From the NCBI GenBank assembly GCA_024763355.1, contig JANTFR010000004.1, positions 1 through 40,082 of the forward strand: 40,082 nt of DNA, given 5' to 3'. The notes beneath the pieces were generated by a model. The model saw nothing but the letters and a program-made list of their open reading frames with translations, ran no database searches and was not told where the DNA came from. The stretch comes from Anaerolineales bacterium. Lineage in GTDB: Bacteria > Chloroflexota > Anaerolineae > Anaerolineales > DRKV01. Shown here piece by piece: positions 23,089 to 39,590 of this stretch; position 1 is the first letter of the stretch, and each line of letters starts with the position of its first letter. The position numbers and the translations under genes are program-made.

Positions 23089-24559
23089 GCGCCTGGGCGA
23101 AATCCTGTGGGCTGCCCTGCTGATTTCCCTGCCGGTGACCAGTTTCCCTTTCTTCCCCGGTGGGGTGGGAGGGGCGACGCTGGTGCGCCCCCTGGCGGTC
23201 TATCCCCTGCTTCTCCTTCTTCCCATCGTCATCCTGCCGCGCTTGTGGAAAGCCTCCCTGCCGCGTCCTGCTCAGCCCTTATTGGCTTTCGCGGTAGTTG
23301 CCACGGGGAGCACCCTGCTGGCGCTTGTCTCCCTCCAGGCAGGGGTACGCGGTGTGAGCGTCCAGGCCCGCGCCCTCCGCTCTCTGGCGACCCTGGGATT
23401 GGGGCTGGCGTTGTACTTCACCGTGGTCCTCTATCTGCGGGATGAGGCCGCTTTGCGCCGCTCCCTGCGCTGGCTGTACCTCGGCATGGCGCTGACGTTG
23501 GCCTGGGGGAGTTTGCAGGCCGTCTACATTTTGCATTTCAATCAGGACTATTTTGACCTGCTCGGCAAAATCCAGCGCTTTATTTCCACCCGCCCGCTGT
23601 TCGAGCGGCGCGTCTCCGGGATGACTTTTGAGCCGAACTGGTTCGCCGAGCAAATCGTCTTCCTGTGGATGCCGTGGCTGCTTGCTGCTGCCCTCACCCG
23701 GCGGAGCGCCTTCCGCTGGCGCTGGGGCGGCCTGATGGTGGAGCATCTTTTGATTGTTTGGGGCGCGGCGGTGACGCTTTTTACCTTTTCCCGCCTGGGA
23801 TTGGCTGCGCTAGGGGGATTGGCGGTACTTGCCGCGGGGATGGCAATCCCCTGGGGGAAGGCGCGCCGCCTGAAAGGGCGGAGGCTTCTCCTATGGGGAA
23901 CAGGCGTTTTTTTGAGCGGCGCGCTGGCCCTGGGGCTGGTCTTCACGTTGGGGCAGCGCAATCAGTATTTTTCCCGTTTGTGGCGTTACTGGACGAACCC
24001 TGAAGAGCGCGGCGGGCAGTCTTATCTGGAGTTCATCGCTTTCGGCCAGCGCATGACCTACTGGGAGACGGCCTACCGCATGTACGCCGACGCGCCCTGG
24101 CTGGGAGTTGGGCTGGGGAATTACGCTTTCCACTTTGGGGAGTACCTGCCTTACCGCTCGTGGCATCGCCAGCCGGAGATTGTGCGCCAATTGACGCCTT
24201 TGGAGGGCAATATCCGTCTGATTACCCCCAAGAATCTCTATCTGCGCTTGCTGGCCGAGACCGGCTTGCTGGGGACGACTTTCTTTGCTGTGTTCGTGCT
24301 GCTGCTGGCGCGACAGGCCGTACATCTGCGGAGCATCGGCGGAGAGGCGCGCTTCTGGGGCACAGGCGGGTTGTTGGGGCTGGCAGTCTTCGCATTTGCT
24401 TCGCTGTCTTACGATTCGCTGGCGCTGCCGAATATGTGGGTGCTCTTCGGGCTGCTGAGCGCGGAAAGTTTGCAAGTGGGGAAAGTGGGCAAGAGGATGG
24501 TGCGGCGTGCGACGACGAACGGCCTGACTACCCAATCACCAAACTACCCAACTAACTAA
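23081..24559 (+). CDS. O-antigen ligase/polymerase family membrane protein
   Basis: The 492-residue protein has ten or more hydrophobic segments and the large extracytoplasmic loop of the Wzy/WaaL family. The loop holds TYWETAYRMYADAPWLGVGLGNYAF and later LITPKNLYLRLLAETGLLG, the classic motif pair of the Wzy_C region (about residues 325-400). It would polymerise or attach undecaprenol-linked glycan units on the outer face of the membrane. Together with the Wzz-like protein this is half of a Wzy-dependent system, yet no Wzx flippase is seen. About 30 C-terminal residues (from LQVGKVGKRM on) are encoded by AAGTGGG and CTACCC repeats. Confidence 0.85.
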   Translation: MRERLGEILWAALLISLPVTSFPFFPGGVGGATLVRPLAVYPLLLLLPIVILPRLWKASLPRPAQPLLAFAVVATGSTLLALVSLQAGVRGVSVQARALRSLATLGLGLALYFTVVLYLRDEAALRRSLRWLYLGMALTLAWGSLQAVYILHFNQDYFDLLGKIQRFISTRPLFERRVSGMTFEPNWFAEQIVFLWMPWLLAAALTRRSAFRWRWGGLMVEHLLIVWGAAVTLFTFSRLGLAALGGLAVLAAGMAIPWGKARRLKGRRLLLWGTGVFLSGALALGLVFTLGQRNQYFSRLWRYWTNPEERGGQSYLEFIAFGQRMTYWETAYRMYADAPWLGVGLGNYAFHFGEYLPYRSWHRQPEIVRQLTPLEGNIRLITPKNLYLRLLAETGLLGTTFFAVFVLLLARQAVHLRSIGGEARFWGTGGLLGLAVFAFASLSYDSLALPNMWVLFGLLSAESLQVGKVGKRMVRRATTNGLTTQSPNYPTN

Positions 24560-24560
24560 C
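24464..24560. repeat. Short-unit repeats over the 3' end of the ligase gene
   Basis: Three unit types run together: AAGTTTGCAAGTGGGGAAAG (24466-24485), GTGCGGCGTGCGACGACG (24500-24517) and CTACCC(A)AAC-like units (24526-24558). All three types occur elsewhere in the window (124-258, 1938-1960, 18327-18343). They encode the last 30 or so residues of the membrane protein and its stop codon. Confidence 0.65.
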
Positions 24561-24564
24561 TTGC

Positions 24565-24726
24565 ATTGCGGATAGGCCATTTCAGTCCACCGCGCAGAGC
24601 GGAGCGACCCTGAGCCTGTCGAAGGGGAGCGCAGTCGAAGCGCAGATTCCGGCTGTTTCGACTACGATTGCTGAGCAATCTCCGCTCAATGCGGGAGGCC
24701 ATGCTTTATCCGCAACTGAGATTAGG
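24565..24726. repeat. Interspersed element, copy A, left of vapBC
   Basis: The sequence starts ATTGCGGATAGGCC and ends CTTTATCCGCAACTGAG plus ATTAGG, so its ends are inverted repeats of TTGCGGATA. The interior contains GAGCGACCCTGAGCCTGTCG, a palindrome-rich motif of a kind dispersed in many bacterial genomes. A second copy in the same orientation lies at 25525-25685 and differs by scattered substitutions and a one-base gap. No protein is encoded. It follows the ligase stop and may act as a transcription end for both flanking genes. Confidence 0.75.
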
Positions 24727-25473: not shown

Positions 25474-25524
25474 GGGGAGTGAGAAAAGTTTACAAGTGGG
25501 CAAGTTTGAAAGTAGGAAACCTGA

Positions 25525-25685
25525 ATTGCGGATAAGCCATTGCAGCCCACCGCGCAGAGCGGAGCGACCCTGAACCTGTGAAGGGGAGCGTAGTCGAAGC
25601 GCAGATTTTGGGCGTTTCGACTACGATTGATGGGCAATCTCCGCTCAACGCGGAAGGTCATACTTTATCCGCAACTGAGGTTAGG
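25525..25685. repeat. Interspersed element, copy B, right of vapBC
   Basis: It matches 24565-24726 in the same orientation along its full length, with scattered substitutions and one base missing at 25580 (CCTGTG against CCTGTCG). It starts AATTGCGGATAAGCC and ends TTTATCCGCAACTGAGGTTAGG, again with inverted TTGCGGATAA ends. Together the two copies bracket the toxin-antitoxin pair as direct repeats about 960 bases apart. Confidence 0.75.
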
Positions 25686-25715
25686 AAAGTTTGCAAGTTG
25701 GGGCTCTCTTCAGAT

Positions 25716-39263: not shown

Positions 39264-39272
39264 ATTATACCA
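39264..39272 (-). promoter_or_regulatory. Extended -10 promoter of miaB
   Basis: On the minus strand TGG-TATAAT (39272-39264) is an extended -10. Only nine bases separate it from the ATG, so transcription would begin two or three bases before the start codon. No Shine-Dalgarno is present, in line with a leaderless transcript. Confidence 0.6.
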
Positions 39273-39285
39273 TTGGAGGGGATAT

Positions 39286-39337
39286 AATAATCTGAGTTGC
39301 GGATAAGGAAACGCCCCTATCCGCAACTCAGATTATT
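39286..39337. repeat. Perfect inverted repeat of TTGCGGATA ends (solo element)
   Basis: Two 20-base arms (39286-39305 and 39318-39337) pair perfectly around a 12-base loop. Each arm contains CTGAGTTGCGGATA, the same end motif as the two elements around vapBC. It could be a shortened form made of element ends only. It sits immediately upstream of the miaB promoter. Confidence 0.8.
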
Positions 39338-39590
39338 TACAGCAAGATACGCTCCCCGCCCCCCCCCGCAATTACTTTCTGCCTGCCCCATTTCGTTGTA
39401 AACTCGCACTTTTTGTCTTGGCCGTTTCTATCAACCATCTTTGGCAGCAACTTGGTTTAAATGGGGAAACGCCTGCAACATTACAGGCGTTTCCTACGAA
39501 AAGAGGAATATAGTCACGCAGCATACTTTTTACACAAACTATAGCAACAGCGTACTACTTCACCGTTAAATTGCACAATACGCTGGAATT
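39338..39590. other. Spacer between miaB and surE with C9 tract and hairpin
   Basis: No gene is visible. It contains a C9 tract (39359-39367) and a perfect 11-base stem GGAAACGCCTG / CAGGCGTTTCC (39465-39475 with 39484-39494). On the minus strand the stem is followed by CCATTTAAACC, so it may be a weak terminator for surE, about 100 bases past its stop. Confidence 0.5.

Follow-up and report, generated by a model that had tools for sequence, protein, structure and literature searches.

The 40,082-nucleotide stretch of the Anaerolineales bacterium contig JANTFR010000004.1 analyzed here (the window) carries a short palindrome upstream of a miaB-like gene, and its arms recall the ends of two larger elements in the window. 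This raises the question of whether the palindrome is a mobile element reduced to its ends, a scar of a larger one, a functional hairpin or a chance repeat. Sequence reading and a repeat search bore out the perfect 20-base inverted repeat described in the initial annotation. The 52-base palindrome (39286–39337) consists of a left arm AATAATCTGAGTTGCGGATA (39286–39305, plus strand), a 12-nt loop AGGAAACGCCCC (39306–39317) and a right arm TATCCGCAACTCAGATTATT (39318–39337, minus strand), the right arm being the exact reverse complement of the left over 20/20 bp. The left arm reads AATA followed by ATCTGAGTTGCGGATA, an IS982 left-type end; in both arms the tip is ATC in place of ACC (ATCTGAG...), and the match between the arms runs outward four bases past the end (AATA/TATT). 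The palindrome had no coding capacity, and its predicted RNA fold had a free energy of -34.4 kcal/mol (z = -7.5), with 0/200 shuffles equally stable.

The motif TTGCGGATA occurred six times in the window against 0.16 expected, always in inverted pairs, of which there were three (24566/24707, 25526/25666, and 39297/39318). A palindrome that contains the end motif by accident is strongly disfavoured by this excess, by the 20-bp perfect repeat with 16 family-end bases in each arm and by the fold z-score, and is highly improbable. What speaks for such an accident is that 12 of the arm bases, ATAATCTGAGTT, occur about 100 nt upstream of miaB in the relative G003 (L186) without an inverted partner, either by chance or as the trace of an older element.

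The other two pairs belong to elements on either side of a vapBC-like pair, composed of a PIN toxin (PF01850) and a FitA-like ribbon-helix-helix antitoxin (PF22513). The 163-bp element (25519–25681, plus strand) has left-type ends on both sides and an exact 6-bp target duplication, TAGGAA (25513–25518 and 25682–25687), while its 164-bp sister (24559–24722, plus strand) has a decayed left end and no exact target duplication (TAACTA / TAGGCA). The palindrome had been said to carry the same end sequence as these elements, which holds for the end family but not for the letters: CTGAGTTGCGGATA was exact in the solo repeat only, the flanking elements having CTGAATTGCGGATA and CTCAGTTGCGGATA (1 mismatch) as well as one decayed end (3 mismatches). 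Across the genome there were four copies of the 162–164 bp element and one 225-bp element with related ends, in addition to single ends. There were thus five two-ended copies of the end family in this genome, yet the interior-less form occurred once. The same ends were present in part of the order. A flank search for an empty site of the C110 element gave no ortholog, only dispersed repeats. The interiors at 24580–24700 and 25540–25660, and those at L062, L119, and L123, contained TTCGACAGGCTCAGG-like and CGCTCCGCTC-like blocks shared with other small same-ended elements, which gives the impression that the elements had taken up other dispersed repeats. At G000:C110:5126-5714 (L226, query bases 75–197) there is a dispersed repeat of about 120 bp, unrelated to IS982 ends, which matched the genome at about 30 other places and G002 at 18.

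The origin of the ends was indicated by relatives in the order, which carry IS982 elements of about 1 kb whose left end is ACCTGAGTTGCGGATAAG and whose right end is ACCTGAGTTGCGTTTAG. The family ends in G143 and G144 border elements of 973–975 bp with one transposase gene each, and the transposase belongs to the IS982 family (NF033520, E = 1e-84, above cut-off). The IS982 elements of G143, G144, G176, and G388 have the left end ACCTGAGTTNNGGATAAG and the right end ACCTGAGTTNNGTTTAG (or GCTTAG, GTTTAA). Their AC tip is also that of the IS982 consensus in the literature, and target duplications in this ISfinder family have a published range of 2–10 bp (PMC7335449). On sequence comparison, the ends of the vapBC-flanking elements and of the solo repeat belong to the IS982 family. 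The arms of the palindrome matched the order's left ends (those of G143, G144, and G388) at 15/16 bases and the right ends at 13/16, which refines the family identity as IS982-derived, with both arms corresponding to the left end of the IS. An IS982 transposase search of 16 genomes gave matches in five, one of them weak; none was found in the window's genome (a 2.76 Mb draft of 285 contigs, 91% complete) or in G001–G003. Three other candidates were discarded. A 4-bp target duplication with ends AACC..GGTT was superseded by 6-bp duplications with ends ACC..GGT, which fit the IS982 AC end; none of the loci from a PF01609 search of six genomes carries family ends; and an inverted pair in G041 proved to be a chance repeat within a histidine-kinase-like coding sequence.

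On its minus strand the loop (GGATA + GGGGCGTTTCC) is similar to the bases that lie immediately inside the left end of the order's IS982 elements (GGATA AGGGCGGGTTCC), with a shuffle p of about 0.01 that is the best among five targets and concerns one of two strands, so that a relationship to inner left-end sequence is only suggestive. The description of the palindrome as a minimal derivative of the element family is sustained in that its ends are common to a real non-autonomous family in the genome and the order, but derivation from the vapBC-flanking elements specifically is not, the variable end bases being different and the loop unrelated.

In the usual picture, MITEs are transposons with an internal deletion that retain a left end and a right end. 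Among 36 small-element candidates of the family, by comparison, a left-type end was present on both sides in 36/36, and the right type was never the better match. Ends of either type were paired within 34–330 bp around loci that had been retrieved with a left-type end; one end of each pair is thus left by selection, but its partner could have been of either type. A few candidates are weak, with up to three mismatches in an end. The candidates were 86–230 bp in size, plus two of 38–39 bp, and 15/36 had exact target duplications of 6–8 bp, mostly TNNNNA. Their interiors fell into several unrelated subfamilies, and only the ends are therefore common to the small elements. The left–left arrangement implies that these are not simple internal deletions of the observed IS, which would retain a left and a right end.

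A collection of 85,000 genomes was scanned for two left-type ends with 0–30 bases between their GGAT cores, and palindromes of 39–60 bp were found at 12 places in 11 genomes. The hosts were members of the Odoribacteraceae, Bacteroidales, Cyclobacteriaceae (two places), Legionellales, Candidatus Symbiothrix, a Rickettsia endosymbiont, Flavobacteriales, Anaerolineales, Psychromonas, Colwellia, and an unclassified gammaproteobacterium. Copies without an interior exist elsewhere, in support of the initial annotation's reading of a minimal derivative, and 5/12 have exact 5–6 bp target duplications (TAACTA, TAATA, TATAA, TACTTA, and TATTTA). Within-genome searches revealed three copies with the same letters in the Rickettsia genome, one of them truncated, and three in a Cyclobacteriaceae genome; the flanks differ in both cases, i.e., the copies lie at different loci, and most of the other genomes had a single copy. 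The Cyclobacteriaceae copies read GATAAGG/CCTTATC except for one, in which both arms carry the corresponding change to GATGAGG/CCTCATC. The Bacteroidales genome KA00344 also contains a damaged IS982 copy whose left end is matched exactly by 27 bases of the palindrome arm; this is direct evidence that the arm is a left end and the palindrome its near-exact mirror. Identical 17-base ends were found in 9/12 of the tiny palindromes and 0/6 of the long elements under the same end rule (Fisher p = 0.009), a comparison of small numbers in which the tiny set spans many phyla and the long set one order. By open reading frames the tiny palindromes were mostly intergenic, although one (G021) touches the end of an open frame. 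An IS982 transposase, intact or partial, was present in just 4/10 of the genomes with tiny palindromes, indicating that the parent IS has often been lost or was missed. Within the order, a strict search of 400 genomes returned the window copy alone, and a looser pattern added the one in G021. No tiny palindromes were detected in viral contigs with two search patterns, and no copies of the window palindrome or the Rickettsia palindrome in plasmids.

Three copies at different loci in each of two genomes suggest, from their letters and flanks, that such micro-elements have spread, and the same copies bear on whether the palindromes are scars of nearly precise excision. Under that explanation, a longer left–left MITE, or an IS982 with two left-type ends, would have lost its interior by replication slippage across the hairpin, leaving the ends fused. 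Excision scars would also look like tiny palindromes with target duplications, the single copy in most genomes fits them, and nearly precise excision is a known process for Tn10, mentioned in two reports (PMC5991714; PMC12524634). A scar with two left arms needs a left–left parent, and such parents do exist among the small elements of the order. However, the intact IS observed are left–right, so a scar of these would not be left–left, and the occurrence of a single palindrome sequence three times, at separate places, in each of two genomes is more simply explained by copies of a tiny element than by scars. An excision scar is the main alternative for the window palindrome, though a rather unlikely one.

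The surroundings of the palindrome raise a further alternative. It lies in the gap between the co-directional genes surE and miaB, the downstream gene being miaB-like with radical SAM, UPF0004, and TRAM domains. Its edge is 16 nt upstream of the extended -10 promoter TGGTATAAT of miaB (39264–39272, minus strand), which is conserved in two same-genus relatives and a same-family relative, and it covers the -35 position. Extended -10 promoters depend little on a -35 box, and this may be why an insertion at this position was tolerated. Alternatively, the hairpin could be functional and unrelated to transposition, as a surE–miaB terminator or a regulatory palindrome at the miaB promoter, in its first role or by later use. 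Its position between co-directional genes and beside a conserved extended -10, its listing by a scan as terminator-like on the minus strand, and the presence of other, unrelated hairpins upstream of miaB in some relatives all fit such a function. On the other hand, the stem is followed by TATTATATCC rather than a real U-run, 29 other genomes showed no conservation of the sequence upstream of miaB, no Rfam family scored above gathering (the matches to MIR405 and mir-3817 were far below and due to the long perfect stem), and the IS982 end sequence in both arms would go unexplained. A functional hairpin is thus improbable, more so than an excision scar.

The corresponding region upstream of miaB in G001–G003 contained no such palindrome; it was not syntenic in these genomes, or its sequence was masked, and consequently no clean empty site could be read. 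At almost the same spot, the same-genus relative G002 (L184) has a different palindrome, AGACCTGACGGGTCT / AGACCCGTCAGGTCT, and in several other genomes hairpins with arms of at least 10 bases occur within 330 nt of miaB. A further perfect hairpin, at 39465–39498 (GGAAACGCCTG TAATGTTG CAGGCGTTTCC), occurs once in the window; with GTAG in front of it on the minus strand, it is built like a GTAG-tagged REP palindrome (PMC3733652).

The most probable reading, to which we assign a probability of about 0.6, is that the solo repeat is a fossil of a putative left–left IS982 micro-MITE, composed of two inverted left ends with 12 bases between them. Such a palindrome could have arisen when template switching during replication produced an inverted copy of a left end, or when a longer left–left element lost its interior by deletion. 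With two transposase binding ends, it would be movable in trans by an IS982 transposase into TNNNNA-like sites. After the lineage had lost the transposase, the window copy would have decayed, with hairpin-templated repair maintaining the identity of its arms; this would account for both the shared C-to-T change at the tips and the additional AATA/TATT match. In Escherichia coli and yeast, mutation by template switching at imperfect palindromes is known to extend arm identity (PMC7202029, PMC3820800). Such switching would give the same outcome as inverted duplication of a single end, and arm identity cannot separate the two. Several features count against the micro-MITE: no target duplication was detected at the window copy (ATAATA / TATTTA, checked at 4–9 bp with shifts of up to 2), both tips are AT where intact family members have AC, the genome yielded no transposase, and the strict search of 400 genomes of the order returned this copy alone. 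The view of an element that needs only its ends is accordingly not supported by this copy. An element of 40–60 bp would also be very short for the synapse of two bound ends.

A broader and more tentative proposal, less likely than the fossil reading itself, is that IS982-family transposases mobilise perfect left–left palindromes of 40–60 bp, perhaps as an extruded hairpin or cruciform, and that these seed larger MITEs sharing only their ends. Movement of the tiny palindromes, if it occurs, would define a minimum length for DDE-enzyme transposition that is difficult to square with double-stranded DNA looping, and inverted duplication of one end would be suggested as a route of MITE birth. The wider results, beyond this single locus, are that the small elements are left–left as a rule and that tiny palindromes recur in distant phyla. 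No report of left–left micro-palindromes was found in a literature search, most subscription papers lying outside its reach.

Among known systems, nearly precise excision of Tn10 likewise leaves a short palindrome derived from transposon ends. However, Tn10 is from a different IS family, and its remnant is a scar that is not known to spread and is not left–left by necessity. REP and GTAG-tagged palindromes are also short extragenic palindromes spread in prokaryotic genomes, but one of their ends is tagged with GTAG or CGTC (PMC3733652), whereas the window palindrome has IS982 ends and no GTAG tag at the border of 39286–39337. IS982-derived MITEs are already known from MITECca01 of Cardinium (PMC9769881), which is similarly non-autonomous, with IS982 ends and no transposase gene. 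Unlike the window palindrome, MITECca01 is about 240 bp long, keeps parental sequence inside its left repeat, has its parent IS in the same genome and is not a bare palindrome. Another close system is the IS982 family itself (PMC7335449), with which the palindromes share an AC-starting end in intact members, inverted repeats of about 18 bp, target duplications of 5–6 bp and a DDE transposase in autonomous partners. They differ from it in lacking a transposase gene, in having two left ends instead of a left and a right, in their length of 45–52 bp instead of about 1 kb and, for the window copy, in a tip of AT instead of AC.
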